A stretch of DNA of 64,000 nt. It comes from Macrocystis pyrifera. Taxonomy: Eukaryota > Sar > Phaeophyceae > Laminariales > Laminariaceae. Below are positions 4,939 to 51,400 of this stretch, one piece after another; the first letter of the stretch is position 1; every line of letters starts with the position of its first letter. Location: positions 124,001-188,000 of the forward strand of contig JASSKH010000026.1 in NCBI GenBank assembly GCA_031763025.1, written 5' to 3'. The position numbers and the translations under genes are program-made. The notes beneath the pieces are model-generated. The model had not been told where the DNA came from, searched no databases, and was given only the letters and a program-made list of their open reading frames with translations.

Positions 4939-4950
4939 CCCGCCTCCCGG

Positions 4951-5127
4951 AGATGTGTTACACAATACCACCAGGTACAAAACCAAAAAAAAAAAAAAAA
5001 AACACAACAAGTACACAGAGCAAGGCGAAGTAAGAATGGAGATGTGTTACACAATACCACCAGGTACAAAACCAAAAAAAACACACACACACACAATAAG
5101 TAAACAGAGCAAGGCGAAGTAAGAATG
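4951..5127. repeat. Tandem duplication, about 89-bp unit
   Basis: Two head-to-tail copies of a unit beginning GATGTGTTACACAATACC and ending near GGCGAAGTAAGAATG, at about 4951-5039 and 5040-5127. They differ mainly in the length of an internal A tract and a CA microsatellite. Confidence 0.9.
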
Positions 5128-7790: not shown

Positions 7791-7861
7791 GCTCCTGTAT
7801 GTCAATCAGTGTGGCGTTCTCCCCGCCCGAGATACTGCTTCGGAAATACTTGAACAGCTCC

Positions 7862-12708: not shown

Positions 12709-15700
12709 TCAAATCGCCGTACTGGGCGACTGGCTTGTTTGCACTTTGATCATGTTCCGCATGCTCTTATATGCCGGTGGTGCTCCCCTCTCTCCGATAC
12801 ATGTGCTCTCGACTTCCTTGGGGCCTATTTTATGCTTCGATTTCGAAATGCAACGATTGTAAGCCGGTGGAGCTTCCTGTTCAAATTCCTTCTGCTCGCA
12901 GGCACCCTCTGAACTTTTGTGCCGCAAGGAAGAGCCATGCGTTATTCCTCGTCCTTCTTTCGTGCTTGCTTCTGTTGTGAATGGGTCCTCGCGTACACTG
13001 CCGCCCTCTGGGCTGAATGATGTGCGCAGGGTATACACTGCCTCGGCGACGACTGCCAACACCATAAGTATGTTCACTGCAATCAGCACACCGCCAAACA
13101 TTTCCGCGCTGTACTCCCGCTCGTCTGAAACGTCCACCTTCGCCAACAACGCCAAAAACAATGACAAGAATACAACTATATTTCCGACCCGAGACAACCA
13201 CACGTCCGATTCCGAAATATACGGATCCGTCGACTCGAAAACAATAATAAACATGAAGGCCAAAACAATTGTTGTGGCGACCTGAGCTGCCGTGTTTGGA
13301 AACGTGAAGACAATTATGCCCGTGAGGCAAACACGCCGAGCACACTCCACAAGTTCATAGTAGAACCGACTAGGCTTGTACGGCTTCCACAAGTCGCCAG
13401 TCGACTGACACTCAGGGGATGTATCACATATCCGTCGATCACCGTCTCTCAGTAAATCGCGATTGCGGAACAGAATAACCGCGTAGAGGAGCGGAATACC
13501 AATCGGGTATACAGCGATCATGAAAGCTGCGTAAAGTTGCAGAGCCTTGTGCTTTGTCGAATCACAAAGAATGGCGTAATCAGCGCGGAGATATGTGAAC
13601 CCATCGTCAAGACTCTCACAGGCGAACATACGGAAGACGGTCGCCGACACCGACGAGTACACGAAAAACGCCAGAAGGAGAACGGCAGAGGCGTGCTTCC
13701 GCCGCACAGCTCCGATCGCTTGTGGAGAGCTACTGTTCCTCCGCATGGCCACCAAGTATGTTCCCCAAATGAGACACAGCAGAGCGATGGGTCCGATCGT
13801 AGCCGCTAAAAGGCGGTCATGGAAGTCGACGGCCGCGAAGCACCCAGCCGAGAGCACCCAGCCGAGATCAAAACTCACGGCGGCAGCGATGCGGTCTAGA
13901 AAAGCCCCGTAGCTAGATGGGTATCTGGCGTTCGCGACGTCATCGAACTGCCGCAGGCGAAGGAGAAATACAAAGCGGACACAGTACGAGCGGCAGCTGT
14001 AGTAATCTCCACGTTGATACTACTGTAGATATTGCATAATACTGTACTGTATTCCAGTAAATATGTGAACAATTGAGGTATTATCCAACCTACAACAATA
14101 TATGCTGTCGTTCGCTGTGGGTTCCCCTTGGAGTACGTTGTGTCGTGCCTGTGAAACTTGGGGATGGTTCCACCAGGGATGGGTAATGGACGAGGCCCAG
14201 ATGTTATCACGAACAAGCACACGCCAACCGTATAATAGCCACTTTCTACCGATGGATGCGCGTTCAGCAGCTGAACTTAGTGGATTGCCGCTGTAATTAC
14301 CGCTTGCCCCCACATACCTGGGTGAGAATCTGCCACGTGACGATGATTACTTTTAAGCCCTGTAGCGGCAAACGCCGTATCAGCCCATGGAGCATCATCG
14401 GCAATCTACCGGGCTGCACCACTTGGTCTGTGGAGACCTTCGACATCATGTAGAGAACGAAGACCACGCCAGCGATTGCAACAAATGCGCCAACGAGTAC
14501 CGCCAGCACAAGCTGTTTCCAGTCATTCATACACCGCCGGCAAGTGTACGACAATGTTTCTGCGAAGCCACTGGTGCATGTAGAGCAATCTGCATGGGAT
14601 AGTTCGGGGAAAGGGGACGCTTAGGGGACAAGTCGGCTTTTTTTGCCGCTTGTGGGCATACACTGGCCGTCAGTGGACATGTATCGAAGTATGACGCGTG
14701 TATTCTACGCATGTTGCATTTATGCCGACATCTACAGTTTGCTACATCGGTGTTTGACGCGTCAGGTAGGTGTTGTGAAACACTCACAGGGCCCGGTGTA
14801 GCCTTGCGCGCAGTATCCAGCAGACCCAGTCACACCTCCTTCGCACGCATCCTCGTTGTAGCAGGCTAGGATGCCATTGCCTCTGCTCGTGTTTGTTGCT
14901 CGCCAGTAACCCTGTTCTATCTCCAAAGTTTCCAGAGTGACTCCTATTCCGTCGCTTTTGGAGTGGTCGTACTGCGCTGTGCATGTCAGACCACCCACGT
15001 TCCCCACGTCGCATTTCTTGAAGCATTCAGGGCAGCCATCGCAAATAGCGTTGTAGTGGTCGTCGTCCTGCGGTAACAACGTGGTCCGAAAGGATTTTAC
15101 TTCATGATATACACTATGCGCCACTCCAGCGGTACATGGAGAGGGGTGCTAGCCCTGTCGGCATGGACTGGCGACCGGATTGTACCATTCCACGTGCAAA
15201 CCTCCATCGAGCATAAGCCTTTGCGTACTCACGCTCCAGACAAGGAAGTAACGTAGTTAGGATCAAGCCTTACAACATACCTGGTACTAAACACGCGAGA
15301 ATCAAGCTTTTCTTGTAGTACTGCCCGTGTAAGGCCTTCATGCTAAGCCTCAAGACAGTGCCTGGCTCTGGAGCAAGGGATATGCAGGGGAAAAATAGGG
15401 AATCAGCACAGGTCTGACCACGCCTCTACTCCCCGCCATCTTACCAATCCCACCCACCTCCACGATGTCCAAGAATGTCCCCGTATCACAGAGCAGCAGG
15501 TTGCCAGAAAACAACACGTGCGATATGTTCGGGATATACCCAATGTTACGCACGGCGGGAGCTTCATCGTAGGCCCCGTTGTTCTCGAACTCGCAAGAAA
15601 TCAACTCTGCGGTGCCAGCCAGCCTTACACCACCCCCCGACCGAGCTGTGTTGTTGACGAACCTGGTGTTCCAAAATTCATCGTAGCCCGCAACACTCTC

Positions 15701-17260
15701 GACGGCGCCTCCAGTTGCCGTTGCAACATTGTCTCGAAACAAGCAGCCGTCGTACCTTACCGGGTACTTCGTTTCGGGTTTCTCATACCAGCCGGTTGTG
15801 GTGGAATATATGGCGCCCCCAACCGTGGCGGAATTCTCGTCAAATATCACGGCCGTCCAAGCAAGGTCTCCAGGGCCAGATGAAAGGTACAGGGCGCCTC
15901 CTGCATAAGTTGCACTGTTCCGCGTAAATGTTACCGCTTGTTCCGCACCACCCCATAACGAAACATTCGAGTTTCCACGCAAGGCTATCGCACCTCCGTT
16001 GGAGCCGGAGTGGTTGTCCTCGAACATTGTGATGCCATCGAAAACCAAATTAACGCCATCAGCATCAACGTCGCGCGCATCAGAATGTATAGCACCACCC
16101 TCTTCAAGTGCGGAATTGTGGGAGAAAACTGTCTCGCCACCTAATTCGACATTTGAACTACCGATATATATCGCGCCTCCCGTACCCTTGGCCGTGTTGT
16201 AGCTGAAGTTTGTCTTTCCGCTCCCAGACACATTTGAAGTTATGATGTTGAGAGCGCCTCCACTCGAGACAACGGTGTTATTCGTGAAATACATCTCCCC
16301 GCTCCAAGACACGTTTGATTGCAACAAATTAAGCGCGCCGCCTCCCATGCTGTGATCGGGTTTGGGTTTGTTGTTGATGAAGCTTGTTTTCCCTTTCCAT
16401 ACGCAGGTCGAGATCATCAGTTGTACCGCCCCTGTGTTATTTATAAACGATGTGTCCCCGACGAACGTCAGGTTGTTGGGTCCGATTCCAAACAAAGAAC
16501 CAGTGTGGAAGTCGTCCGTATTGCTAACGAACGTCGTGCGTCCACTCCACAACGCATTTGCCCCGACCCATACACTCACAGCAGAACCTGCGTCTGACGC
16601 TGAATTTAACTCGAACGTAGTTTCCCCGCTCCACGAAACACGCACGTCGGCCCCGGCGTACACAGCACAGCCATCCACATCGCAACTATTATTGAAGAAC
16701 GTCGATACACCGCTCCAAGATACCACGGAGTCTTCGCCTGTGACGTGGACGCCGGCACCGGAAGTACCTTCGTTGTCCTTAATTGTAGTCTCACCGCTGA
16801 AGGAAACAGCAGAATCAATGACACGCATAGCACCGCCTTTGTTTCCCTGGAAGGTCGTGTTTTGCAGAACTAAAATGGAGGAAACGGCATTGATAGCCGC
16901 ATCCCCGAACTCAGCAAAGCCGTTGGTGAGCTGTAAACTGCTCAAGGTCAGCGAAGCCTTGCTGATCACGAAAAGTTGAGTTGCCCCATCCCCATCCACA
17001 CTAGCATCCGCATCCATACCCATGATGTTGAGGGTAGACCCCTGTCCAACCGCGATAGGAACGTCTACAACCACGGCACCATGCCATTCCACATTGAACG
17101 TCCCACCCGAGCAATTCACAACCTCTGCTAGAAATCCCGCCCCGGCTGTATCTTCCACCGTGTAACTCTCCGCCGTGGAAAAGCAAGGGTCAACAGCAGC
17201 GTACTGGCAAGCATGAAATGCGACCCCTATGAGGAGCAGCCACATAGAAACACGTACCAT
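12709..17260 (-). CDS. Pmp-like beta-helix, Cys-rich, multi-pass membrane protein
   Basis: Four-exon model: 17260-15458, 15067-14788, 14589-14318 and 13947-12709. All introns are GT-AG and the frame stays open for 1197 residues. Residues 1-22 are a signal peptide (MVRVSMWLLLIGVAFHACQ). Residues about 25-600 hold more than ten repeats with (V/N)SWSG.T.F..N and GGAI/FxxN motifs, as in Pmp right-handed beta-helices, with many N-glycosylation sequons. Residues 602-715 are Cys-rich (CDGCPECFKKC, then YCSTCTSGF across a junction). From about 718 to 1090 there are roughly eight hydrophobic segments, including FDLGWVLSAGC. The cytoplasmic tail has two PPAY motifs (1145-1148 and 1175-1178). It is probably a cell-surface adhesion or sensing protein; no ligand can be named. 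The first 5'ss (GAG|GTGGGT) is the least certain; an extra small exon using the nearby GTAAGA is possible. Confidence 0.85.
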
Positions 17261-17475
17261 CCTCGAACACCTGCGGAGGGGGGGAAACACGTGAACCAAA
17301 GACAACGGAAGATAATCAACCCCTCCAAACGAAAGCATAGCAAGAAACAAACGTACCTCAGGCAGACTGAATGACCCCGCACGCCTGTGTGTTCGCTTCA
17401 GACGTTCTACGCCGCACGTTTCCTGTTCGAAAGAAGGTGCCAAGTGGAAACACGGGTTCGGGTGCGTTCCTGCCA
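17261..17475 (-). other. Probable 5' UTR with intron of the Pmp-like gene
   Basis: Upstream of the chosen ATG the sequence shows a plausible intron: a donor CTGAG|GTACGTTT at about 17355 and an acceptor with a C-rich tract, CCCTCCGCAG, at about 17277, just before the start codon. The frame stays open to an ATG at 17476, but the signal peptide begins at 17260. I therefore prefer a spliced leader region over an N-terminal extension. Confidence 0.45.
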
Positions 17476-17499
17476 TAGAGCGTCCGCACGGGCTCGTGA

Positions 17500-17509
17500 T
17501 GGTATATAT
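17500..17509 (-). promoter_or_regulatory. Candidate TATA box for the Pmp-like gene
   Basis: Read on the minus strand the sequence is AAATATATACC, about 30 bp upstream of 17475, where the transcript model begins. The position suits a TATA element. No other promoter evidence is available. Confidence 0.4.
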
Positions 17510-17539
17510 TTTCCCAGTACCAGGTATCTATTCACAGGA

Positions 17540-28599: not shown

Positions 28600-29200
28600 C
28601 GGCGAGTTGAAAGATGCTGCTGCGGCAGCCGGGGCAGATGCCAATGCGGAAGAGGTGAACGCTGTTGCCCTTGCTGCGGCTGCGGCTGGTGAGGACGTGG
28701 CGCATGCTGGAGGTGAGGTCGACAGGGATATGGAAAATGTAGCTATTGGAGAGGGTGCAGGGGCTGTTCAAGGTGGCATTGGGGGTCACCAGGGGGGGTC
28801 GCCGGTGAGGGTGTTGGGATACCGATACCAGCGGTAGATCAGATCCACGAAAATTCCCTCCGCATTACTACGATTATCGAGCAGCTCACGGTTGCTCTTC
28901 TACTGATTCAAGGGTTGGCTGAGCAAGTCAACGCCTTGCAACATAATCAACCGGGAGTTGGGGAGGGGGCTCATTTGGCGAGGGGAGGGGGATCTCAGGA
29001 GGATGGGGTGGGTGTCGTGTCGAATCCCAATGAGGATATAGAAGAAAAAGAGGCAGCGAAGCGACGAATAGCAGCATGGAGCAAGGACAGCACCAAACGA
29101 TTTTATGCGATGGCAGCAGTAGTGCGTCGTTCACCAAGGAGCGTATTCAAGAAATGCTCGGGGAAGATCTGGTAGTGAACGACGCTGTGTCGAAGATGTT
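28600..29200 (+). pseudogene. Broken ORF interrupted by the TIR element, left part
   Basis: A degenerate coding region spread over three frames. It starts with an Ala-rich part (KDAAAAAGADANAEEVNAV), continues with a helical segment (LRITTIIEQLTVALLLIQGL, then AEQVNALQHN) and ends with FTKERIQEMLGEDLVVNDAV just before the insertion at 29200. Frameshifts lie near 28810 and 29075. The helices look like coiled coil. I do not recognise the family. The same reading frame continues after the transposon at 33652. Confidence 0.5.
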
Positions 29201-29202
29201 CA

Positions 29203-29745
29203 CACCCCGGACAGCTCATGAGCTAGCTCATCTATCTTGTATAGCTCAAGCTTCGAAAACATGTGCAGATGAGCTACCGCCTATAGCTCAAGCCGGGGGA
29301 AACATGTGTAGCTCATGTAGCTCCCATAGCTCATCTCGTCGGGGGCAGATGAGCTAGCTCATGCAGCTCCTATAGCTCAGCCTGGGCAAATGTGTGTAGA
29401 TGAGCTATCATCTATAGCTCAAGCTTTGAAAACATGTGCAGATGAGCTACCACCTATAGCTCAAGACAGGAGAAACATGTGTAGCTCATGTAGCTCCTTT
29501 AGCTCATCTCGGAGGTAGATGAGCTAGCTCATGTAGCTCCTATAGCTCAGTCTAGGAAAATATGTGTAGATGAGCTATCCCCTATAGCTCAAGCCTTCAA
29601 AACATGTGCAGATGAGCTACCACCTATAGCTCAAGCAGTAAAACATGTGCAGATGAGCTATCGCCGATAGCTCACCCCCGGAGAACGTAATCATAGCTCA
29701 TGTACGCAGCTCATTGTAGCTCTTTCTCGGCAACATTTGCGTGTA
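29203..29745. repeat. Left subterminal array of AGCTC palindromes
   Basis: Tandem units of about 42-45 bp, such as GATGAGCTATCGCCTATAGC, then TCAAGC(T/C)TTGAAAACATGTGCA. Each unit holds a GAGCTA(T)-N4-(A)TAGCTC dyad. Blocks of GTAGCTCATGTAGCTCC(T/C)ATAGCTCA alternate with them. The array degrades after about 29690. It matches the right array (33170-33630) in the same orientation. Confidence 0.9.
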
Positions 29746-31122
29746 AGATAAGTAGCTGAAAAAGCCCACCCTCAGGGACAAGTGCGCATGTATTTTTGGA
29801 ATAATATGGGTTGTGCAGCTTACCATGCATATTTTCAATTTCAACGAGGGTACGAGCGGCAGTCAATATCGATGTTACTATTGGCATTTTTCGCATACTC
29901 ATACTACAGTGAACATGATTAGTGTGGCTACTGCTAATAGTAATGGTGCGCTGCAACGCCAGCGAAAAAACAATCCGCCAACCCATCCACCCACCACCCA
30001 TTCTTAAGGCTATATTGAATCGCAGCATCATCTGAATCCCGGACATACCGTTCCTTGAACACCAACAAGGTGCAAAGACGAGACAGAGAGGCAGACACGA
30101 AAAACTATCCATTAATAGTACATCGCCAAAAAAACACGCAAACGGATGAACTGCTGTGAGGGACATCACAAAACGAAACACAGCAGATCCGCCGCTGCCT
30201 CAGTTTATCCCTAAGGCATCTACGTGAAGCTTGAGCTTTCCCCTTCGTGCTCGTCGAAGACGTCCTCGTCAGACTGGGTAGCTGTTCTGCCGGGTACCGT
30301 ATACACCGCCTAAACCCGCTTGGTGGTGGTATGTCACGAATGGCAGTCTCCTTTGGTCTCCTGTTGGTAAGCGCAGCGTGAGAAGGTGCACAGGCCCTGT
30401 AAGCGCTAAACAAGCGAGGCATCTCGAACACACATCATCATGCACAGTACTGCTGTATTATTTGAAAAATACGTATAGGTCAGCTGCGAAAGAAGCGTAA
30501 AATACATCAGCCGCCGACAAGAAACAACAAACTGCTGTACGGCCATCGTTGCTGCTGTGTTCGTGCGAGTACGGTTAATAAACACTAAACACCTGGACGA
30601 AAAATAAAACCCCACACAGCTACGAGTACAGCTCGCTTCATAGATACATGTACATCCACCTTGCGACTACAGTAGTACATTTTCCCCTACCCTTCAACTA
30701 CTCCAGAGAAGCACACAGATTGGATGATGTAGCTCGAACAGCAGTATCATGGTCTAGGTGGGCAAAATTACACGACCTCCGAAACACGCACCTTGCTTTC
30801 GGCCTGGGTTGACCGTTGTCCTCATCCACATCGATGGCGTTGTTGTTGGGATCCACATCCATCGATGGACCCGCTTGCTGCCCGGCGCCAGCCTGGTCTA
30901 CGGCCGACGCGCCGCTAGAGCTGCTGCCCCGGGTCGTGGGCACACTGGGGGTGTTGCTGTGCTGTGTCGTTGTTGTGTTTTGTGCAAGCGCCCCTTGTCT
31001 CTTGAGGTGTGCGTGGTTACAGCTGACAGCCGCTATGTAGCTGTTGTGGTCAAAAAGCGAAAAATAAATTCAAATTCTGCCGGGTGTCGACCAGATCCGA
31101 TCTACTGCAAGCTGACGTATTT
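29746..31122. other. Unique interior of the outer TIR element
   Basis: Sequence between the left array and the nested element. It holds a 156-codon minus-strand ORF (29711-30181), rich in Met, Cys and Leu, with no domain I know, and the acidic open segment listed separately. No DDE or RNase-H-like transposase motif was found. Confidence 0.45.
30770..31060 (-). other. Acidic Ser/Gly-rich open segment, possible exon
   Basis: The minus-strand frame stays open from about 31060 and reads YIAAVSCNHAHLKRQG, TTTTQHSNTPSVPTTRGSSS and MDVDPNNNAIDVDEDNGQPR. It ends at a plausible donor, AAGCAAG|GTGCGT, near 30793. The composition resembles the disordered N-terminus of a nuclear protein. No following exon was found. 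It could be the first exon of a lost transposase or ordinary low-complexity sequence. Confidence 0.3.
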
Positions 31123-31130
31123 CAAAATTT

Positions 31131-33053
31131 CACACCTCGGATAACGTAACACTCGGATAACACTTATCTACGTTATGGGGCCTAACACAGGAACGTGGTA
31201 ACGTACTAACATAGTGTTAGCACTAGAGGAGCGATCACGGTAACGCAGTAACACACTGTTAACTGGAAACCCACGAACGTGCACGAGCCTTAACGTTATG
31301 TTGCTGCTCGGTCTCGTCCAGCTCTGGTACAGTAACATTATGTTATGCCGTGATCAGTCCTTGAACTAACACCGTAACACAGTGTTAGGCTTTGACCAAA
31401 CACGTACGTTATCACTCTAACATTCCCAGATCGATATCCGCATGTTTACTAACACGATAACATAATGTTATTGTCGACGCAGCGTTAGACGTAACACAAT
31501 AACATTATGTTACCCTTGGGAGGAGTGTTATACATAACACCCTATAACATAACGTTGCCATGTTCGCCAGCACTACTAACACATAACATTGTGTTACAGA
31601 TAACACACTAACGTAACATAACGCAATGACCAGCACTACTAACACTACGTTATCTGGACCCCCCATCTGATTGCCTTAGGGTCGGATAACGTAACACTTA
31701 ACGTACGTTAGATACGTTACAGTCTTAGCCGGCCCATGCCTAACATTATCTTAGGATGTTAGCCTAAATGCGGAAGTCCCTGTAACATTATGTTACGGTG
31801 TTACCGTCAGTAAAGATCTGATAGTAACATTCCGTTACCGTGTTACCATAAAAACCAATCCGGGTCTAACTTTATGTTACTGAGTTACCGTTGGGGCCGA
31901 AGTCGTTCTAACGTGATGCTACTACGTTACCCTTTGGATCTTCCCGAGATCTAACATGTGTTACCTGTGTTGGTGGTAAAGCGGGCGTGTGGGAGTAACA
32001 TAGCGTAGCCGTGTTATTCAACTTCGCCGAAATCCCAGTAGGGGATACCTCCAAAAATATCCCCGGGGGGGGGGGGAGGATAGCATGGCATCCCCGGTAA
32101 AAAACGTCTCCATATTTTAAAACCCCAAAACAGGGGATATTTAGGATGGATCCCCGCAAAAAAAAAAAACGCATCATTTGTTTTTGTGGAAACCCCACCA
32201 GTACGTTATCCATCTATAACACATTACGTTATCCATCTATAACGTAATCTGCACACTCGCACGTACGAATTAACACGGCAGTAACATATTGTTGCGTTTA
32301 GATTGGGGGTGTACGTTATCTACTAACTTGTGTCACTACATACATTGCATACGAGTTAACAACATTAACATAATGCTATTAATAGTGTTTTATCGATCAT
32401 ATACGTTATCCGTTTGACGTATGTTATGTTGTTATGGTGGCAAGACTTCCGTAATACCCTCACATATACCGTCGCTCGAAACGGACTGCTGCTGCGGCTG
32501 ATACAGTAACATAATGTTAACATTGTATTGACCATGCGCGTCATCTCTCTAACGTGTGTTACGATAGCCCCTAGGAATTTCACTAACACACTAACATAGT
32601 GTTATGTACGCGTTTATTTGGCCGTGTACGTTATCCGTCGAAAGGGTGTTACGGTAGCACGAAGAATCCCGCTGACACACTAACATAACGTTACTCGCTA
32701 CGGGCTGATGCCGCTAACACGGTAACATAATGTTAACGTTTTAGTGACCATGTATGTTATCCCTTTAACGTGTGTTACGGTAACCACCAGGAATTTCTCC
32801 AACACGCTAACATAGTGTTACTCGCTATGGGATGCATACCCTAACACCGTAACACATATACTGCGGTCAGTACGAGATCAAGGTAACACTCTAACATAAT
32901 GTTACGCGATCGCCCGCCAATATCATAACACACTAACACTATGTTATCACAAAATCCAGAAAGCAGTTAACGTAGTAACGTAATGTTACGTGTTTTTTTC
33001 GCTGACGCCCAACATTAACATAAAACGTTAAGTGTTACGTTATCCGAGGTGTG
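31131..33053. mobile_element. Nested TIR element with 8-bp TSD and TAACATAATGTTA array
   Basis: The ends are inverted repeats identical over 23 bp, beginning CACACCTCGGATAACG. An exact 8-bp duplication, CAAAATTT, flanks the element at 31123-31130 and 33054-33061. The element is 1923 bp long. Nearly all of it consists of about 27 dyad-symmetric motifs with consensus TAACATAATGTTA, spaced irregularly. Around 32400-32840 these form a higher-order repeat of about 100 bp with ACGTTATCC and GTGTGTTACGGTA. It has no coding capacity. The first 11 bases match the outer element's ends (CACACCTCGGA), so both should use the same transposase class. Confidence 0.9.
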
Positions 33054-33164
33054 CAAAATTTATAAAATATAATACCACATGCTGTACCTGGTACGTACAA
33101 CAAATATATGGTTGTTTGTGCTGATGTCGTTCTATTTTGCGTACTTATATTGGTCACTTATACA

Positions 33165-33640
33165 GTTCATGAGCTAGCTCATCTGTCCCCTATAGCTCAA
33201 GCCTTGAAAACATGTGCAGATGAGCTATTGCCTATAGCTCAAGCTTTGAAAACATACGTAGATGAGCTACCGTCTATAGCTCAAGCTTCGAAAACATGTG
33301 CAGATGAGCTATCGCCTATAGCTCAAGCTTTGAAAACATATGCAGATGAGCTACCGCCTATAGCTCAAGCCAGGGGAAACATGTGTAGCTCATGTAGCTC
33401 CTATAGCTCATCTCGGAGGTAGATGAGCTAGCTCATGCAGCTCCTATAGCTCACTCTGGACATATATGTGCAGATGAGCTATCCTCTATAGCTCAAGCTT
33501 TGAAAACATGTGCAGATGAGCTACCCACCTATAGCTCAAGCCAAGAAAACATGCGCAGCTCATGTAGCTCACGTAGCTCACCGGTGAGCTAGCTCCTTAA
33601 AGAGCTAGCTCGAGCTACCGTGAGCTGATCTGTCCGAGGT
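33165..33640. repeat. Right subterminal array of AGCTC palindromes
   Basis: Same motif family as the left array: TAGCTCAAGC(C/T)TTGAAAACA and (A/C)GATGAGCTA, with GTAGCTCATGTAGCTC blocks. It ends in CTAGCTCGAGCTACCGTGAGC before the terminal repeat. It starts with TTCATGAGCTAGCTCATCTG, similar to the start of the left array, so both arrays run in the same direction. Confidence 0.85.
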
Positions 33641-33651
33641 GTGAAGATGTT

Positions 33652-34245
33652 AACAACGTGCTCCGGGATCCGCATCGACCAGTTCGCGCCAAAGAAAGGG
33701 GTCTGGGGGGGGGTCTGTGGACAAAGGGATGCTGTCGGGAGTGGAAGGGACTGTTCAGGACCGTTTCGCAGCATTGGCGAGGGATTTCGAGGTTGTTTTG
33801 GGGGAATACGCTCGGGCGGGGGGGTTTCTTCAGGAACTGCGTGAGATTCGACAATTATAGTTGTTCGCGTACGCACCGAGATACCAGGACGTCCTCACAG
33901 GAGAACTCGGGCTGCATAGATGTATCTGATGCGATTACCGCGACGATTGATCAGGATTTTGTGGACGTGTCAAAAGGGGTCGGAGACGTGTGTAGCGGCC
34001 GCCATAAAGTCGTCTTTTCCGAATGGTCCGCCCATGCTGGGTCAGAGTGTTCCAGAATTGCCGCCGCCAACAAAAATCCGAGGACTCGCTCAGTAACTGA
34101 TAAAATTAGAGGGGTGCAGCAACAGGTGGTATTGCAATCAGTGATGGGGGGATCGAAGAAGAGGAGTGGAGAGGGAGGAGGAGCTCCGTCGGGGAAGAAG
34201 AAGGGCACACCGACGGGTTCTTTCGGTTCGAATAAATTAAATTGA
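33652..34245 (+). pseudogene. Broken ORF interrupted by the TIR element, right part
   Basis: After the target duplication the frame from the left part continues as LTTCSGIRIDQFAPKKGVWG. A frameshift near 33710 leads into LSGVEGTVQDRFAALARDFE, then VVLGEYARAGGFLQELREIRQ, a helical segment in a second frame ending at a stop near 33860. A third frame carries DAITATIDQDFVDVSKGVGD and a basic end (KKRSGEGGG, KKKGTPTGSFGSNKLN) to the stop at 34243. The family is not recognised. The gene was decayed in addition to being interrupted. Confidence 0.5.
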
Positions 34246-34894
34246 AATTCAGGTTGATTTATTTTATTGTTTTGGTCAGATTGCATGTCCGAATCGAAAA
34301 ATAACTACGTAATTAAAGCAAGTTGCCTCGAAGATTTTTATATTTGAAACGAGGGTCTCATGTCTCATGCGGGTCAATCCGTCAAAAACACAAACAGCAT
34401 GCAAAAACCGGCTTTAAAACAAACATTTGTGTCCTCTTTATCGGGGTCAAACCGCTACTCATTAATACTACTGTTCGCGGACGAATACCACTAAAAATAA
34501 CTGTCGAAAAGGGCTTAAAACTTGCAAACTATATTTATTTCGTCTCCCCGATTTCTTTAATAAAACTCAAAGCACGTCAGCTGTGAATTCAACCCGAATT
34601 CGGTAAATAAACTCCCCTTCAAGTGTTTTCGGCAGTCACTTTTTTTTATTAAAAACTAAAGAAGCACGTCAGCTATGAATTCAACCGGTCGGCAGACCGG
34701 TCGATACTCAACTTTGCAAGCTCTACGTGAACCGTCCGCGCGTTTTCCAATATTTCCCCCGCGATTGACTACTGGCCGGTGACTCCCTTGTGACTATTTA
34801 TTTGTGTTTTTTGAACTTATAACATTGATTCGTTGTAAATTGGCCAATCAGCTGTTCCTGAACCTTTTCGCCTCCCCGAATTCAGAAATAATTA
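34246..34894. repeat. Dispersed repeat; part recurs inverted at 38555
   Basis: The block at about 34660-34795 (CAGCTATGAATTCAACC, CGATACTCAACTTTGCAA, GTGAACCGTC, GCGATTGACTACTGGCC) recurs in inverse orientation at about 38555-38705. CGTCAGCTGTGAATTCAACC-type sequence also occurs at about 34573 and 36572. Confidence 0.65.
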
Positions 34895-34999
34895 TTACGG
34901 GGGTCTATAGTTAACAGGACCTATGGCATACATAAAAACCTATATATTTAGGTATTTTTACTAACAATATTTGGTCCTGTTAACTATGGACCCCCGTAG
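34895..34999 (+). mobile_element. 105-bp MITE, copy 1
   Basis: Inverted ends TTACGGGGGTC(T/C)ATAGTTAACAGGACC, with TA on both sides (34893-34894 and 35000-35001). The interior is AT-rich (ACCTATATATTTAGG, CTAACAATATTTGG). A TA target duplication points to the Tc1/mariner group or a related class. Confidence 0.9.
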
Positions 35000-37192
35000 T
35001 AGTTCCCCTTTGCTGTGTATTCCAGACCCTTTTAGAATTGCAGGGATGGGCGCTGTGTTGCCACCTGCGCGAGCTTCGATTTGAGGCGCGTCCGTGGCGC
35101 TTTGTGGTCCGCATGTTATGCCAGCCTTGGCCAGCCAATTATTTTCTATAAGAAACTAAGAAAGTTCCGATCAGAGCGCGAGAACCCAAGCCAGCAGACA
35201 AAATTGGCGAGAGCCAGCTTGCCGTCCAATATTCCATACTACAGTGTACAAATTTTAAAGCTCAACGCTGCGTCAAAACAAACGAAGCCATCGAACTCTA
35301 AGCCTGCGCGGCCTACGAAAAATAAAACCAAACGTACTCGAGAAGGAGCTCTCGGCATTTTATTTGCAAGTCGCCGGTTTGTGTCTACAATCGTGAGCCT
35401 CTCTGTCTCCTTCACTCGCATGTTGTTCTCTTCCTTGTGAGCGAACGTCGCGGGGGGCGGAAACCGCCCGCGTAGCGAAGCGTCTTGTATTTATGTGCGG
35501 CAACGCAGGATGGGCACGACTGTTTGTGATTTCTAATCCAAAATGTACTTCATTCATCCGTTGTGCGTATCATATTGGGCATTTCTCACCTTGGTTGTGG
35601 AGGCTTTTGCTGCTCAGAGGGCGATCGCGCCAGGCCAGCTGGAGGTAACTGCCTTCGTCAGCAAGAAGGAGAAGCTGGAGGGGTGTTACCCAGAAGGGGG
35701 CGCTTTGGGACTGATTCTACTGATGATGTAGGCCCGCAATGCTCTCCACCGGACGGCCCGGTCGGTACACACACACGAGGTTGTAGTCCAGGAAGAACTT
35801 TCTTTCGGGGTCTTCCCGTGTCCGTGTTATCACTTGCCATCTTGCCATGCTGTCAGTTGCTGGACGTTTTCTTTTGTATGTATCGGAGAGGCTGCGTTGC
35901 TCGCTGCGTTTGCCAAACAAATAATAATAAATCCAGTTATTTCAGGTGCCACCGATTGACCTAAAGAAAAACAAAAGGGAGAATTGCCCAAAAAGCGCTC
36001 CGCACATTCCCGGGGTGAATACTGCTGTGATTTGATATCAGGGGGGGGTGGGGGGGGTCAAACCCTCCTGTGCAGCCAGGCGTGGGTATGGGGCCCCTTT
36101 TTTTTTTTTTTTTTTTTTTTTTTCATCATCACTTTTACTTTCCAGCCCACTCGTAGGAGGTTTTACCCTCGACGATCTTCTGGACAAGCCGTGGTCACAG
36201 GCGTCCCTTCTCCCCCCCGGTACGTGCCTTTAGTTTTTGTCGCGCATACTGGAGCAGTATGGCTACCAGGTGCGAACCAGGTATATTGTCCTGACGATAC
36301 TGCTGTTGTACTATCAATATTAATACTGCTTGTACCAGGTAGTATATACCAGGTATACAGCAGTATCATATTAATAGTAGTGCTTCTATTCTGTACGTAC
36401 TGCCATCACACTGACAAATCAACAACAAGGTAGAATTGTGCTGAGAATTTGCGACAAAAAAGGAGAGACCAGCTCGGCTGTTTCCTATGCGGTTCGATTT
36501 CGAAATTCTGACTTGTGTTTTTCGATCTCAAAAATGATGCCCGTGCTATATTTTACAAATTTTGAAATACGCCAGCTGTGAGTTCGACTGATTAAATTGC
36601 AAAATCCGACCGGATTTTTTTTCTTGCGCCAACATCCGACGGCTTGGGTCATCTAAAATGGCATGCTCTCTAAATTCAAGATGTTATCTACGACAGCAAA
36701 TTATAACAATAGCAGCAGAACGATCGATCAGTTGGATGGTCATACAGCTATATAGGGATGTTGAATCGCTCCCGACGCGCGGTCTGCGAACGGCGCGTCC
36801 CTCCGTGGCCAGACTGCAGTCGGCTGGCACGGACTCGGGCCTAGAGACCAAGAGAAGCGCACTCGGCGCGCACCTCTCCGTGGATACGGACTCGTAGACT
36901 ACACAGCTTATTGCTGTACAGCAGCAGTCAGTCTCATTGTGAACCACAAAATACCAAGACACAGGTTGACTCTAGCGCACTCGCCACGTCTGTTCGCCGC
37001 CGGACCAGAGGCAGTCACAGCCTTGGCTCGGACGCGCGGGTCCTATGCGCAGTGCAGCGCACCCAGCGCGTCTCTTCGCGGCGCCAGACCACAACAAGAG
37101 CAGTTGATCTCGGCGTTTGCTCTAATCTGTGCACGCCCAATAAATCTGAGTTTTCCGCATAGCAAGACTCTTAACGATTTGCCAAGTTCCTA
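35000..37192. other. No gene recognised
   Basis: A 119-codon plus-strand ORF at 35081-35440 (Lys/Ser-rich) has no known motif. A poly-T run lies at about 36099-36123. Palindromic TACCAGGTA and TATTAATA motifs cluster at 36270-36375. Confidence 0.4.
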
Positions 37193-37297
37193 TTACGGGG
37201 GACCATAGTAAATAGGACCAAATATTGTTAGTAAAAATAGTTAAATATATAGGTTTCTATGTATACCATAGGTCCTATTAACTATGGACCCCCGTAA
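37193..37297 (-). mobile_element. 105-bp MITE, copy 2, opposite orientation
   Basis: Same length and sequence family as copy 1 but inverted. The ends are TTACGGGGG and CCCCCGTAA, flanked by TA (37191-37192 and 37298-37299). Inverted, its interior matches copy 1 over almost its whole length. Confidence 0.9.
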
Positions 37298-37918
37298 TAT
37301 CTGAAAATACGATCGGGTCAAAATCTGAATCTAAAAAATCGAACCGCATACGAAGCAGCCTCGAGAAGTGCCGTTTGTGTCCTGGAGGGAACCTGGGGTG
37401 AACCTGGAGGGGATCAGCCAGCTACACCCACCCCACGTCGATTTTCCGCCAGCTGTGCGTAGGCCCTCATGCTGCAACGGCGAAGGGCACACCATCAACA
37501 ACCAGCTGGATATATTAAAAATGCACAGTCAGTCATGTTTGTATACCAGGTATACAGTAGTCTACCCAACGGAGCAACCAGGAGCTGCCCAAGTGCCTCA
37601 TTCGCCCTCTTTGCTGCTGCGTGCGTCTTAATCGACCTTGCCTTCAGGCCCGAATCTACGCGACCCCGAATGATGTATGCATCCATTAGGCCGCGCTGCA
37701 GCAGTGCAGAGCTGCGTGGGCCGCCCTCTCATCCTCTCGGTGCTAATGTTCTTCTCACATGCTCGTGTTGGGTGATGCGTGATGCGGTGCAACTCTTACA
37801 GCAAACAGCAGCAAAAAAATCGTGCCAAACAATAGTCCTCGATCGAGGAGGTCCACCGCGCTACGGGCACTCTCGCCTTTCTTTGTTGGGTCAGCCGGTA
37901 ATATGGGCTGTATACGTG
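37298..37918. other. No gene recognised
   Basis: Only short ORFs in unassigned sequence. Confidence 0.35.
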
Positions 37919-46111: not shown

Positions 46112-46343
46112 TATGGCCTCTGCCAGATGATATCAGCAAGAGGGCTTCCAGCGAGGGACTCCACCAGTCTCGCTGGCCTCGCACTCAGTAAGTCTTGTTC
46201 TTAGAGCTTGTATTATCACGGAGTGATCCTCATCGGACCACGAGCCAGGTGGCTAGGGGACATCACACAGGATCCCCGGCCACTGCTCCACTCACACATG
46301 CGATTACACTGAAACCTCCACGGCTTGGTATCTTTTGGCTACA
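46112..46343 (-). repeat. 3' LTR of the Ty3 element
   Basis: 232-bp direct repeat identical by eye to the other LTR. On the minus strand it starts TGTAGCC and ends GGCCATA. A GGGGGTG polypurine-like tract precedes it at about 46345-46350, in the position expected for the plus-strand primer. Confidence 0.95.
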
Positions 46344-46421
46344 GCACCCCCAAAGCGAGTTCACTCGACACGAACGAGCTTGACAAAACCAAAAAACCAA
46401 GACGAAATCGCATGCGGCAAA

Positions 46422-49400
46422 TCACAAATCAATGCTGAACTCTGAAGCAATTTTAATCTTGAGCGCACGGGTCATCCGTAATTTGCGCAATTCCTTCACG
46501 ACGAATTCAGGCGCAGCAGAATAAATCGACCGCAAAGACTCCCACGTGCGCTCCTCTGCTTCGAAACCATCCCAATCGACCAAGACAATCACCTCGTTGG
46601 CATCATCTTCGGCCACATGCACCAAAGCATTCATGCGGCATTCACCCTGCGCAAAGGAATGTTGGAAAACATCCTTCAGATCAGCGGTGACGTTCAACGT
46701 CGCATCCGCATAAAATCGTAAACGAGCCACGTGAGCTTGATGCACCTTCCCAGAAACGATGTTCTGAACTGAGTACACATGATCATGATCAGCTGCTACC
46801 ACACGCCACGGACCAGTCCATGTGGACAACAATTTCGGTGTGGCACCCTGCCGACGAACACGAGCATACAACACGAAATCACCAACCGCAAATTTTGGCA
46901 ACACCACCTGGCCCTGAGCCTGTTTACGTTTGTTGTCGCGAGACACGGCAACAGCTGCGCGAATATCGGCGCAAAATCTCTCCTGCTCTGCAACGACTTC
47001 ACGGACGTTCGCACGCAACAAGTCAGCATTCATCACGTCAACATTCCACCTGCCATCAGACTCAGAAACGAGCGCCGAGAAATCGGTACGCGGAGCACGC
47101 CCAAACATCACGCTGTACGGAGTGCTTCGGTAACGTTCACGAAACGAAGTGTTCAAGGCCCACTGAGCGGCCGGCAAAACATCAACCCACTCCGAAACCT
47201 GACGACGCTGTTCTGACAGAATGGAACGCAGAGCACGTACCACCTCTTTTACCATGCGTTCACACGTACCGTTCGACCACGGCGTGTAAGCGACAGCAAA
47301 ACGATGTTCGATGTGCAACGCGTCGCTCAACAAAGCAAGCACCCTGTTCTTGAAATGCGTGGCGGTATCACTCACCCACACACGCGGCACCCCCAAAGTC
47401 TTACACCAGGCTAGCAAATGCTTCGCTGTGACCTCGGCTGTACAAGCCTCGGCCGGTTCCAACGCCACGTAGTTGGACAAATCATCCATGATGACCAAAA
47501 CATATCGGAAACCATCCTCATCAGGCAGGCCATCGCTACCTTCGGGCCCGCTGTGGCCAACATACAAAAAATCAAAGTGCACCACTTCTCCCGGAGCGGT
47601 ACCATGCACCGTGTCTCCGTAGGGACGAGGAATGAGTGCACCTGCACGCGTGTCTACACAGTGCAAACACTGGCGAACGAATTCGCGAACCTGAGAATCC
47701 ATGTGAGGCCAAACACAATATTCCTTCAGGCGAAACAAAGTCGGCGCCACACCACGGTGACCAGCCGAGCGCATGTGCGCGCACACCATCAAACGAGTTT
47801 GAAGAGCAAGATCATCCGGCGGAATCCACAAGACGTCACGCACCCCAACACGCACACGAAACAAACCATCATCGGCCAAGGTAGCTTGACCGAAGGTTGT
47901 CGAAAATTCATGAACACCAACGCCGATACGAGCGACAGACCTTTGTTGCGAGGCACGAATCACATCCAATGCGGGAAGCGAATCGTCAGCATTACATGGG
48001 CTGTGCACGGCAACCGAACGAACAGGCACCGTAGGAACTTTGACCCAACGAGACAACAGATCCCCCCAACAGTTTCGATCGCCAGGGATGTGTTCGATTG
48101 CATAGCGGTATTGTCCTAAAACACCCTTCCAATTCTCTAGGCGTTGTGCCATGGTCTTTGTGACCGTCGTGACACACTTCTCCGGATTGAAAATGTACTG
48201 CAAGTTTCGATGATCAGTAAAGATATGAACACCACCCCAAAGCAGGTATTCGAGCCTCCGGAACGTATTAACGATCGCAAAACCTTCTTTGTCGACAGTC
48301 GCCCAGCGCAACTGCGAACCTGTGAACGAACCACTCAGAAATCCGAGAGGCTCGTGAGACATGCTTTCCAACGCCAATCCACTGCGAAATTCGTGTTCAG
48401 GCACTTGGGTGAGAAAACTACCCCAATGGAAATCAGAAGCGTCAGGAAACATCAAAACAACGCACCCGGGACGAGGATGATGAAGCGGCACTGCTTGCGC
48501 CACCAAACCCCGTGCGGCATTCCACGCCCGCACCCGATCCTCCGTCCACGCGGTATCCTTGATGACACGATTGCGCGCCACTCGCTTAGTCCGACGTGTA
48601 GCCCCAACAAGGAGCTCCTCCAAAAAATCACGTAACGGTGCTACCGTTTCCGCTAAACGTGGTAACGATGTACGCAACCAGTTGACAGCCTGCAAGAATT
48701 GCATTAGTTCTCCAGCGTTTTCGGGACGACGCATTTCACTTAAACCTTGCACTCGAGCGGGGTCATGGGACACGACACCATTGGAATACACCTTACCACA
48801 CCAGACCAGTTCACGAGAGAAGAAGGTACACTTGTGGGCGGCGACAAACAGTCCAACATTCTCCAGGCGTTCAAGAATGTCATCAAGCAGCTGCAGAAGA
48901 GCTTCTTCGGTGTCTGCGAAAAAGAAAACGTCATCGACCCAAACTTTGCAATCCAAACCACGCAACACTTCAGTCATGACACCTTGGAAATAAGAAGTCG
49001 CATTCAAAACACCTTGGGGAACACGGGTAGGCGTGAACAAACCGTCGCTTGTCGCCATGGTGAAGACGTCTTGCGCCTCCGGAGCCAAAGGCATCTGCCA
49101 GTACCCTTGAAGTAGGTCCAGCTTGCCGAAGAAACGCGCCCCCAGCAGATCTCCCATGTCTTCATGGTTGGGCATGACGCCCGGGGACTTCTCCACCTGT
49201 GCGTTCACCGCCGAGTAGTCGCTCACCAAACGGAAAGAGTCCTTCTTGGGCACCGCCATCGCCGGACTCGCCCACACCGCCTGGATGTTGTGGTAGACAA
49301 AGCCAAAAAACACCAAAGCAGCAATGCACTTCGAGAGCCAGTCCCTTTTCGTCGGTTCGTACCGACGTGGCGTTGCCTTGACAGGCTTCGCCTGTTGCTT

Positions 49401-50177
49401 CAGCTGCACTCGCATCGGCTCCACTTGCGCTGGCGGATCACCACACAGCGCACGGCGAAAAGCACCCACGCGACGAGCCAAAATTTCGCGCAAACGGGTT
49501 GCTCCGCCGACGCTTAATCCACTCTGCTCTGCCTGCTGCACGCTGTCCTCCAACGCCCGTTCTCGGGCCGTCCGCTCCTCCTCCGGATCCATGAACATGT
49601 CTGGCCCCCGGTCGACCAAATGTTCCACCGCCTTGTCCTCCGGAGCATCCACCGTAGCCTCGGTCTGAAAAGCACGCACGGAAACCGTCACTCTGCGCGC
49701 CGCAAGGTAACTCGGAGTCTCCACACCGGTCGATACCGGCACTGCGCGAGGGCGAAGCTTCTCCAGAGCTTCACGGTAGACGTCGATGCCAAGAGCTTTC
49801 ATGGTAGCCATGCCAAACAGAACGACGTTATCTGTACCAGGCATGACCGCGAAAGTGATGGGCTCCAATTTCACCGCTCCCCACGGCGTCCGTACACTCA
49901 CGGCAATCGGCACCGTTTTGTGCGTGACCATCACTGAAACACCCGTAGCGGTTTTCGCCTGCTGCGGGCCATTTTCGAACGGAATTTGCAGATCGGCGCC
50001 GCCGAAATGCGAAGACAGCTGCTGAAGTAAGCCGACACCGATGGACGTGAGCGCCGACCCCGAATCAAGGATCACACGCGCCATCAGCGAACCAACCGAC
50101 CCTGGCAAAGAGAGATCAGCGCGTAAACACTCAGCGCTGCGATCGACAGGCACTTCACCTGCCGTTGAACTCCGCAA
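46422..50177 (-). CDS. Ty3/Gypsy Pol polyprotein with C-terminal chromodomain
   Basis: 1251-codon intact ORF. Protease DSG motif at residues 38-40. Reverse transcriptase about 300-500, with FRLVSDYSAVN, LDLLQGYWQMPL and the catalytic VDD at 414-416, where YxDD is usual. RNase H about 570-710 (FPDAS at D579, TDHRNL at 654-659). Integrase: zinc-binding H801, H807, C837 and C840; catalytic D869, D937 and E973 with D-x35-E spacing; then a GPW-type module near 1121. Chromodomain-like end about 1180-1230 (VLVDWDGFEAEERTWESL). The stop at 46424 is before the 3' LTR. The listed start (a TTG in the overlap with gag) is only the ORF limit. Translation likely depends on shifting from gag (+1), although a past deletion is equally possible. 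Confidence 0.93.
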   Translation of the reverse strand: MRSSTAGEVPVDRSAECLRADLSLPGSVGSLMARVILDSGSALTSIGVGLLQQLSSHFGGADLQIPFENGPQQAKTATGVSVMVTHKTVPIAVSVRTPWGAVKLEPITFAVMPGTDNVVLFGMATMKALGIDVYREALEKLRPRAVPVSTGVETPSYLAARRVTVSVRAFQTEATVDAPEDKAVEHLVDRGPDMFMDPEEERTARERALEDSVQQAEQSGLSVGGATRLREILARRVGAFRRALCGDPPAQVEPMRVQLKQQAKPVKATPRRYEPTKRDWLSKCIAALVFFGFVYHNIQAVWASPAMAVPKKDSFRLVSDYSAVNAQVEKSPGVMPNHEDMGDLLGARFFGKLDLLQGYWQMPLAPEAQDVFTMATSDGLFTPTRVPQGVLNATSYFQGVMTEVLRGLDCKVWVDDVFFFADTEEALLQLLDDILERLENVGLFVAAHKCTFFSRELVWCGKVYSNGVVSHDPARVQGLSEMRRPENAGELMQFLQAVNWLRTSLPRLAETVAPLRDFLEELLVGATRRTKRVARNRVIKDTAWTEDRVRAWNAARGLVAQAVPLHHPRPGCVVLMFPDASDFHWGSFLTQVPEHEFRSGLALESMSHEPLGFLSGSFTGSQLRWATVDKEGFAIVNTFRRLEYLLWGGVHIFTDHRNLQYIFNPEKCVTTVTKTMAQRLENWKGVLGQYRYAIEHIPGDRNCWGDLLSRWVKVPTVPVRSVAVHSPCNADDSLPALDVIRASQQRSVARIGVGVHEFSTTFGQATLADDGLFRVRVGVRDVLWIPPDDLALQTRLMVCAHMRSAGHRGVAPTLFRLKEYCVWPHMDSQVREFVRQCLHCVDTRAGALIPRPYGDTVHGTAPGEVVHFDFLYVGHSGPEGSDGLPDEDGFRYVLVIMDDLSNYVALEPAEACTAEVTAKHLLAWCKTLGVPRVWVSDTATHFKNRVLALLSDALHIEHRFAVAYTPWSNGTCERMVKEVVRALRSILSEQRRQVSEWVDVLPAAQWALNTSFRERYRSTPYSVMFGRAPRTDFSALVSESDGRWNVDVMNADLLRANVREVVAEQERFCADIRAAVAVSRDNKRKQAQGQVVLPKFAVGDFVLYARVRRQGATPKLLSTWTGPWRVVAADHDHVYSVQNIVSGKVHQAHVARLRFYADATLNVTADLKDVFQHSFAQGECRMNALVHVAEDDANEVIVLVDWDGFEAEERTWESLRSIYSAAPEFVVKELRKLRMTRALKIKIASEFSIDL

Positions 50178-50610
50178 AATACTTTTCCATAGCGGAGTTT
50201 ACCATCATCGCGCGGTCTTTGACGGATGTTTCACCGCCCTGCTTTTCATCGCGCCTCATTGAGAGAACGCGACGCAAGTCCGCTGCCGCCCGCGAGGTGT
50301 CAAATCTGTTGCTGGTGGTTGTGTAACCAGCGTGCTGCCTAACAGCGTCCAACAACTCCGAGGCGGTCATCGTAGTCTGATGCTTGTAAAATCCCTCAAA
50401 ACACCGATGAATGTAATTGGGGATAAGCTGGCCCATGCTCACTTTGGAGTGCTGAACCACCCCCTGAGCGTTGGCGAGCTGCAGCCGTTCCTCATAATCG
50501 AGGTACGCTGCGTAAAAAACACGAGAGGCCTGCTCGGTCCACACCTCTCCGTATTTCGGTGGAGTCAGAGACTCCCCTACCACCAGCGGCGTGCTTGCCG
50601 TGTGCGCCAT
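50155..50610 (-). CDS. Short Gag of the Ty3 element
   Basis: 151 codons from the ATG at 50608-50610, 207 bases after the 5' LTR. The sequence reads like the N-terminal part of a capsid-type Gag (LDYEERLQLANAQGVV, then MGQLIPNYIHRCFEGFY). No zinc knuckle is present and typical Gags are two to three times longer, so the C-terminal part may have been deleted. It ends with AGG TGA in a frame that must be shifted by +1 to enter Pol; the two frames overlap by about 45 bases. Confidence 0.75.
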   Translation of the reverse strand: MAHTASTPLVVGESLTPPKYGEVWTEQASRVFYAAYLDYEERLQLANAQGVVQHSKVSMGQLIPNYIHRCFEGFYKHQTTMTASELLDAVRQHAGYTTTSNRFDTSRAAADLRRVLSMRRDEKQGGETSVKDRAMMVNSAMEKYFAEFNGR

Positions 50611-50817
50611 AATCCACAGCAGTCCACCTGGACTCTACTGTAATAACGGAGAAACTGCCGCCTGACCTGTGCGTCCTCCAGCTCCCGGAGCGTCCTCCCC
50701 TGCTGTGCGCTTCAAGCCGTTTCGATCCGTCCAACGGGCCAACTGCCTTCCCAGCTGTGACCCAATACTCCGCAGCCGAAAACTCCTCCAACAGAAGTTC
50801 CGCGAATATCTAGATAT

Positions 50818-51049
50818 TATGGCCTCTGCCAGATGATATCAGCAAGAGGGCTTCCAGCGAGGGACTCCACCAGTCTCGCTGGCCTCGCACTCAGTAAGTC
50901 TTGTTCTTAGAGCTTGTATTATCACGGAGTGATCCTCATCGGACCACGAGCCAGGTGGCTAGGGGACATCACACAGGATCCCCGGCCACTGCTCCACTCA
51001 CACATGCGATTACACTGAAACCTCCACGGCTTGGTATCTTTTGGCTACA
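50818..51049 (-). repeat. 5' LTR of the Ty3 element
   Basis: 232-bp copy identical by eye to 46112-46343. Its inner edge overlaps a perfect 14-base palindrome (AATATCTAGATATT, 50805-50818), where the tRNA primer-binding site is normally found. Confidence 0.95.
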
Positions 51050-51400
51050 GGTACCAGACCGACTAGTAGGGGGACCCTGGCTACGCTGCTCGTATCACGA
51101 GGTGTTGCGGCTACCTGGAGGGTGCTTTGTGCTCCGGTTTGCCTGTCATTTCTCTTGGTTCATAGTGTTGTTTGTATGCAGCAGGTGGTGGTGCTGTTTC
51201 TTTAGCTGCCACATATCCGGAGGGGAGGCACGACACACTTTTCTTTTTTTTCTTTCTTCTCTTCCGATTTTTTCTTGTTTTCTATTTTTTGTTCGATTTT
51301 TTTTTGTTTTTCTCTCTTTCGTAGAACGTGTATGTCGTGCCTGCCGTATCCAGTATAACGACATGACCTTGCATTGTCTGCTCGGCCCACACAGTGCATA
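51050..51400. repeat. Older dispersed repeat, right flank of the Ty3 element
   Basis: Begins with the target copy GGTA and CCAGACCGACTAG, then GTTGCGGCTACCTGGAGGGT, matching the 5.39-5.46-kb copy. CATTGTCTGCTC near 51375 also occurs at about 45335. A T/C-rich tract covers 51237-51320. Confidence 0.55.

Follow-up and report, generated by a model that had tools for sequence, protein, structure and literature searches.

Two nested elements of Macrocystis pyrifera have a terminal tip in common and carry unrelated palindrome arrays on one 42-bp register

In a 64,000-nucleotide stretch of the genome of the brown alga Macrocystis pyrifera (GenBank assembly GCA_031763025.1, contig JASSKH010000026.1, positions 124,001 to 188,000 of the forward strand; hereafter the window, in which all positions below are given), two elements with terminal inverted repeats (TIRs) lie one inside the other. 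Each is flanked by an exact 8-bp target duplication, each begins and ends with the same 11-base tip save for one C/T difference, and each carries behind this tip a palindrome array of its own. The words of the two arrays are unrelated; the 42-bp register on which they are set is common to both. We think it slightly better than an even chance that the two are non-autonomous class II transposons of a single group making 8-bp duplications, the younger within the older, whose ends pair a conserved tip, the site of cleavage, with an array that is helically phased, can change its word and would serve a DNA-binding domain of the transposase or of an accessory protein. New relative to the initial annotation of this DNA are the array spacing common to the two elements and the remnant of a gene in the outer one.

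Ends, target duplications and nesting order

The outer element spans 29201-33643 (4443 bp, or 2512 bp once the inner element and one duplication copy are subtracted) and has AAGATGTT on either side, an identity that holds for 8 bp and fails at the ninth. Its ends are imperfect, 16 of the first 25 positions matching and the first mismatch following six perfect bases; common to them is CACACC[T/C]CGGACAG, running to CACACC[C/T]CGGACAG[C/A]TCA. The inner element (31131-33053, 1923 bp) is flanked by CAAAATTT, again identical over 8 bp and not 9, and its terminal repeats are perfect over 23 bp, as had been noted at the outset. All four ends carry the tip CACACC(T/C)CGGA with its single C/T difference, beyond which lie TAAC half-sites in the inner element and AGCTC half-sites in the outer one. 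When the two elements were compared by blastn, no match was found at E<=0.01; at E<=10 the tip was the best match and nothing else could be aligned.

Outer and inner elements: features

29193-29200, no strand: outer target duplication, left copy AAGATGTT (exact match to 33644-33651)
29201-29211, plus: outer left tip CACACCCCGGA (sequence comparison of ends)
29201-33643, no strand: outer TIR element (8-bp duplication and inverted ends, blind scan)
31123-31130, no strand: inner target duplication, left copy CAAAATTT (exact match)
31131-31153, plus: inner left terminal repeat, 23 bp, perfect
31131-33053, no strand: inner TIR element, no recognisable coding sequence (ends, blind scan, open reading frame and Pfam scans)
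33031-33053, minus: inner right terminal repeat
33054-33061, no strand: inner target duplication, right copy CAAAATTT
33633-33643, minus: outer right tip, CACACCTCGGA as read on the minus strand
33644-33651, no strand: outer target duplication, right copy AAGATGTT

A blind scan of the whole window for exact 8-bp duplications next to 10-bp inverted ends (at most 1 mismatch, 150-12,000 bp apart) returned three pairs, namely the outer element, the inner element and one artefact within a palindrome array, and among ten Markov-simulated control windows seven gave no pair and three gave one. Run with other duplication lengths and no control, the same scan gave seven pairs at 7 bp, two at 9 bp, both within arrays, and none at 10 bp. 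Both elements thus display what defines a TIR (class II, DDE-type) transposon, inverted ends together with a duplication of fixed length, here exactly 8 bp. The nested pair with exact duplications, common tip and private arrays described in the initial annotation was borne out by the blind scan, the ends, the motif counts and blastn.

The inner element sits entirely inside the outer one, in its non-array part, and the outer element is therefore the older of the two. A blastn self-search of the window revealed no further copy of either element. It did reveal a 31-bp stretch (36547-36577), 93.5% identical to the outer sequence on both sides of the inner insertion point, in which CAAAATTT occurs once; this may be an empty-site paralogue, which would lend weak support to insertion of the inner element with duplication. 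Patterns representing the tip and the lattice of the inner element and the unit of the outer one had zero matches in viral_contigs, and the inner tip pattern had none in the prokaryotic genome_contigs; brown algae are expected in neither collection, so that these negatives carry little weight.

Two unrelated words on a 42-bp register

The inner element holds 26 copies of TAACATAATGTTA when up to 3 mismatches are allowed (Markov mean 0.93), 21 at up to 2, 13 at up to 1 and 4 that are exact, so that the approximately 27 copies counted initially hold for the loosest count and not for exact copies. TAACNNNNNGTTA is matched with at most 1 mismatch at 26 inner sites. Of the 25 spacings between neighbours, 12 are exactly 42 bp and 17 differ by at most 1 bp from a multiple of 42; over 20,000 random placements, at most 4 spacings were exactly 42 bp and no spacing value occurred more than 5 times. 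The sites are dyad-symmetric and form three blocks of alternating orientation, with half-sites 8-9 bp apart (TAAC at -8 in 10/25, GTTA at +9 in 19/25). In some sites the TAAC at -8, or a GTTA at +17 (5/25), is a third half-site, set 8 bp beyond the palindrome.

Inner lattice: features

31207-31596, plus: group A, some sites with an additional TAAC half-site 8 bp upstream
31741-31921, minus: group B, in inverted orientation, with an additional GTTA half-site downstream; five sites follow one another at exactly 42 bp
32282-32988, plus: group C, residual higher-order duplication of 117 nt, 82%

Within the left half of the inner element, nine 13-bp sites, on which the figure rests, are 82% alike, with a spacing of 42 bp and a spacer length that is constant within blocks. 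The spacers themselves, extra half-site columns excluded, are 30-31% alike both in the left half and across all 12 sites, where 25-26% is expected; these tests were made on subsets of the 25 palindromes (19 sites; 12 exact-42 neighbours; 12 made up of 5 from left A, 4 from left B and 3 from the right). Tandem duplication probably gave rise to the array, of which almost nothing was then retained beyond the sites and the distances between them, and such retention would be the pattern expected from selection on phased binding. The longest palindrome-free stretch of the inner element (32030-32190) has runs of G and of A and repeated GGGGATA/TATCCCC, and is possibly a small further insertion.

TAGCTC occurs 39 times in the 2512 bp of the outer element; its density in the remaining window is 0.11 per kb. 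Anchors defined by five hand-chosen TATAGCTCA variants are spaced 42, 43, 46, 42, 42, 43, 43, 42, 42, 41 and 26 bp apart in the left array and 42, 42, 42, 42, 43, 43, 42 and 43 bp apart in the right one, 41-43 bp accounting for 17 of the 19 within-array spacings. Independently of these anchors, Tandem Repeats Finder (TRF) reported a period of 42/43 bp, together with one of 170 bp. The AGCTC half-sites lie 9 and 18 bp apart, and the two arrays are co-oriented, in contrast to the inverted ends that enclose them. The spacers are 57% alike across 15 units, and the units are young tandem copies.

Outer arrays: features

29213-29722, no strand: left array of AGCTC/GAGCT half-sites with a 42-43 bp period and a higher-order repeat of 170 bp (TRF, counts, anchors)
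33171-33626, no strand: right array, oriented as the left array, 42-43 bp period (TRF, counts, anchors)

Sequence homology between the inner and outer units was looked for and not found. Profiles of the 42-bp units, built from 23 of the 25 inner sites (31545 and 31640, which are off register, were omitted) and 19 hand-chosen outer anchors and compared in all registers and on both strands, gave a best score below the null mean that 0.785 of 2000 shuffles reach; the profiles are unrelated, and the elements have no other blastn similarity. Arrays with unrelated words have a 42-bp register in common, equal to four turns of B-DNA at 10.5 bp per turn, and a similar half-site distance of 8-9 bp. The idea, already voiced in the initial annotation, of one transposase-recognised terminus with rapidly diverging subterminal sites fits these observations and is strengthened by the common register; the protein that would bind there may be an accessory one, and the rapidity of the divergence is presumed. 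Neither these ends nor a 42-bp palindrome lattice in transposons is reported in the titles and the beginnings of abstracts consulted, a search that excluded subscription journals, Repbase and supplements.

Coding content of the elements

Six-frame Pfam scans of the nested element returned no family at E<=1, and hence no match to KDZ (CxC), hAT (BED, RNase H-like, hATC), P (THAP), VANC or Mutator-like transposases, both copies being non-autonomous. A weak match between the open reading frame of the outer gene remnant and Pro_Al_protease (E 0.12, sub-threshold) was taken as chance. On the minus strand of the outer element, an exon-like stretch ends AAG/GTGCG, and an AG acceptor some 0.5 kb further on leads to an acidic C-terminus and a stop.

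Outer gene remnant: features

30792-31009, minus: gene-remnant exon, homologous to P0121/P0122 down to 30809, with the AAG/GTGCG donor at its end (protein search)
30220-30286, minus: putative last exon (..SDEDVFDEHEGESSSFT*), preceded by an AG acceptor (predicted from sequence; no homologue covers the region)

The two relatives, P0121 and P0122 (ENA contigs), came from 8 candidates at E<=1 obtained with a short open reading frame as query, and are 74 and 76% identical to the first exon. The match to P0122 runs on across the presumed intron with shifted frames, which implies that DNA related to the interior of the outer element occurs elsewhere; near the exon start, the beginning of P0121 is matched by the outer copy in three different frames, and the outer gene copy thus looks decayed. 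Neither protein has a Pfam match at E<=10, and P0122 has no relative in the PDB. With a longer contiguous query, which admitted relatives of about 330-1051 aa, none of the 140 candidates reached E<=10, and a protein search of viral_contigs, where brown algae are not expected, gave 36 pattern matches for the gene remnant, of which 0 were confirmed. That the Ser-rich, acidic segment of the outer element is a transposase tail would be a guess.

A bipartite end as the favoured explanation

The anatomy described above is suggestive of non-autonomous cut-and-paste elements, and a bipartite end, with the tip for a catalytic core and the array for a DNA-binding domain, would be the most economical model of it; the class of the two elements, their function and the generality of their organization are what we infer. 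The tip would be the cleavage and strand-transfer signal for the catalytic core of the same or a closely related transposase. The private half-sites (TAAC/GTTA in the inner element, TAGCTC/GAGCTA in the outer) would be read by a separate, fast-evolving DNA-binding domain, located in the transposase or in another protein that the element encodes. This protein may bind as paired subunits every 42 bp, at intervals of four turns and hence on one face of the helix, in a cooperative row that coats and synapses each element. The binding word would be free to change between families, and the spacing could not, since it would be set by the architecture of the protein. The transposase for both copies would be supplied from elsewhere, the outer element retaining a decayed gene end.

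Precedent for such a division exists in the Ac/Ds system of hAT elements, where Ds elements have an 11-bp TIR in common, subterminal AAACGG repeats bind Ac transposase cooperatively and full transposition of Ac needs the terminal 200 bp (PMC3260210; here and below, citations refer to the parts of each source that were consulted). Two subterminal repeats of Hermes, STR1-STR2, together make a quasi-palindrome to which two BED domains bind (PMC10368747). A broader proposal splits recognition in two: catalysis would use an 11-bp tip that does not vary, and an exchangeable "address" array would take a wholly different word from one family to the next on a fixed 42-bp lattice with fixed 8-9 bp half-site spacing. 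Phased filaments would form along the whole element, and families would diversify by swapping DNA-binding specificity while keeping the architecture, with self/non-self targeting among elements of like tips as a result; this we put forward tentatively, as a possibility more apt to fail than to hold.

Several observations weigh against this explanation. The rule of same lattice and different word is drawn from two elements, and the shared 42 bp may be a coincidence, with a chance of about 1 in 6 by a rough, uncomputed estimate if only whole-turn spacings are possible. Residual spacer similarity within two left groups of the inner element is significant (0.34 and 0.41) and its right third contains a 117-nt duplication at 82%, which together indicate that part of the register was inherited from tandem duplication. 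The register shifts from block to block, with 39, 45, 56, 60, 89, 101, 141 and 373 bp among the spacings, and a periodogram over 10-90 bp was best at 40.9-41.0 rather than 42 bp, scoring 0.62 where the null maximum was 0.59 (300 draws); the shifts account for a signal that is weak and off 42, and the spacing test is the stronger one. Weak extra sites found by weight matrix fell on the lattice in 0 of 4 cases, where 0.3 were expected, too few to weigh. Inner sites are present along the entire element, as far as about 780 bp away from the closer end; because this is further than the 200 bp of Ac, a coating or accessory protein fits better. Some Ds1 elements without Ac hexamers are still mobile (PMC3260210). 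Finally, neither a transposase nor an autonomous copy nor any further copy was seen within the window.

Alternative explanations

The main rival, which we consider unlikely but would not dismiss lightly, is that the arrays are the targets of an element-encoded anti-silencing protein comparable to VANC of the Arabidopsis VANDAL elements, coating non-coding parts against host silencing. VANC targets are often tandem repeats and vary considerably among related elements (PMC5735166; PMC10398659), and here the outer arrays lie outside the gene remnant and the inner element is mostly filled by its array, far beyond what a transpososome needs. Set against this, 5-methylcytosine is negligible and H3K27me3 and H3K9 methylation are absent in Ectocarpus (PMC12477816); provided that Macrocystis resembles it, the mark to be removed would be another, for example H3K79me2, which disfavours a direct copy of the VANC system. 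The six-frame Pfam scan found no VANC-like protein, although both copies are non-autonomous, and the word "periodic" is absent from the consulted text of the VANC paper (PMC5735166), weak evidence that no fixed period was noted there. In another reading, the arrays would be bound, as parS-like sites, by a ParB-like accessory protein such as has been reported, together with a DNA methyltransferase, from giant algal transposons like Sola1-1_Ec32. This has a slim chance of being right: palindromic, element-specific sites would suit it, but the reported ParB-like carrier is a Sola-1 element and the six frames of the nested element contain no ParB or methyltransferase fragment.

The 42-bp period may be a mere memory of tandem duplication by replication slippage and the arrays passenger satellites, which we regard as rather improbable. 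The 57% similarity of the outer spacers over 15 units, the 170-bp higher-order repeat, the significant residual similarity of the inner spacers and the one inner 117-nt repeat at 82% all speak for it. However, neutral decay would lose sites and register together, and in the inner left half sites of 13 bp at 82% identity keep a spacing of 42 bp between spacers at about 30%; the sites are moreover dyad-symmetric, and the period would have to match by chance between two unrelated arrays. The period could also encode a 14-residue protein repeat, given that the outer right array can be read on its plus strand through 118 codons without a stop (..PIAQALKTCADEL..) and that the open reading frame at 33066-33422 has a repeated PIAQALKT-CADEL. 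This we hold to be very improbable and disfavour, because the frame is repeatedly lost in the left outer array and mismatches between outer units have no codon-position bias (0.338/0.303/0.329); moreover, no frame of the inner lattice, whose period is the same, stays open for more than 101 codons.

Relationship to known transposons

Ends of hAT elements usually begin CAGNG and those of the present elements begin CACAC; VANDALs are Mutator-like and are not known to have the TIR and 8-bp pattern found here; and the subterminal repeats of CACTA/EnSpm elements are read by an accessory protein, TnpA. Among the classes named in the initial annotation for an 8-bp duplication (hAT, P or Zisupton-like), Zisupton/KDZ and hAT are consistent with that length (PMC12730594, PMC12810828), Zisupton/KDZ and hAT both being credited with 8-bp duplications in the former source and fungal KDZ1 in the latter, and the exact 8 bp of both elements agrees with KDZ and with hAT alike. 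On this length and on abundance in Ectocarpus, where 8 KDZ families make up 1.8% of the genome against 4 hAT families (0.05%) and 51 unclassified DNA families (PMC12477816), we favour KDZ at about an even chance, hAT or an unclassified group being possible.

Resemblance to KDZ extends to the 5'-CA..TG-3' ends reported for Kyakuja and to the giant Ectocarpus families with nested insertions, some of them presumed non-autonomous (PMC12477816). The duplications of 4-8 bp and the long TIRs of Cryptococcus KDZ2 and KDZ3 (PMC12810828) count against the assignment. There are other differences: Kyakuja duplications are of 7 bp, the TIRs of fungal KDZ1-3 measure 139-241 bp and those of the present elements 11-23 bp, no KDZ domain was found in the latter, and phased palindrome arrays go unmentioned in the parts of the KDZ literature consulted. 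With hAT, Ac/Ds and Hermes, the present elements have in common the 8-bp duplication and a short TIR followed by subterminal repeats (PMC3260210, PMC10368747). They differ from Ac/Ds, in which some subterminal repeats are common along with the TIR, in that the tip and the spacing are common and the word is private. As in VANDAL/VANC, private tandem motif arrays occupy the non-coding parts of related elements, there to be read by diverging element-encoded proteins (PMC5735166), a resemblance only; a helical lattice is not mentioned for VANC in the consulted parts of that paper. CACTA/EnSpm elements have CAC..GTG ends (PMC12730594); EnSpm/CACTA (CMCT) was rejected on its 2-5 bp duplications, against 8 bp at both elements (PMC12730594).

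Surroundings in the window

With the outer element removed (29021-29200 joined to 33652-33891), one frame of the empty site is open for 119 codons (..SFTKERIQEMLGEDLVVNDAVSKMLTTCSGIRIDQF..), and the outer element may thus have inserted into an exon or into another element. Pfam searches at E<=0.1 found nothing in the 2.4 kb to its left (six frames) or the 3 kb to its right (three forward frames). Two near-palindromic copies of about 110 bp (34893-35004 and 37190-37299, ACGGGGGTCCATAGTTAA..TTAACTATGGACCCCCGTA), 91% alike and in opposite orientation, resemble fold-back miniature inverted-repeat transposable elements (MITEs).

Elsewhere in the window, 15350-17527 (minus) encodes a Chlam_PMP-repeat protein with one relative at 97% identity; among the 120 of its 127 relatives that were listed, the named eukaryotes are Ectocarpus, Laminaria, Ascophyllum and Scytosiphon. 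A hydrophobic, membrane-protein-like open reading frame without a Pfam match lies downstream of it (12709-14019, minus), and 12709-17527 is possibly one brown-alga gene. A Ty3-type retrotransposon (46112-51050) has a pol open reading frame (reverse transcriptase, RNase H, integrase) at 46422-50198 (minus) that lies between two 233-bp direct repeats; these are 100% identical, so that the insertion is probably recent, and their ends, as placed here, show no clear target duplication. The window also contains an ankyrin-repeat open reading frame, a region with an 89-bp period (4501-5400), parts of which recur at 54745-55107 (85-87%), and an internally repetitive region (7857-8367) in which several frames are open and encode Arg/Ser-rich repeats.

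Implications

If the rule of one lattice and different words holds in more families, it would separate the cutting signal from the family address, two functions usually mixed in transposon ends, and would provide a natural series of matched DNA-binding domains and words on one scaffold. If true, it would also make directly testable how families escape cross-mobilisation, and whether such arrays serve transposition or escape from silencing could be tested in a lineage with negligible 5-methylcytosine.

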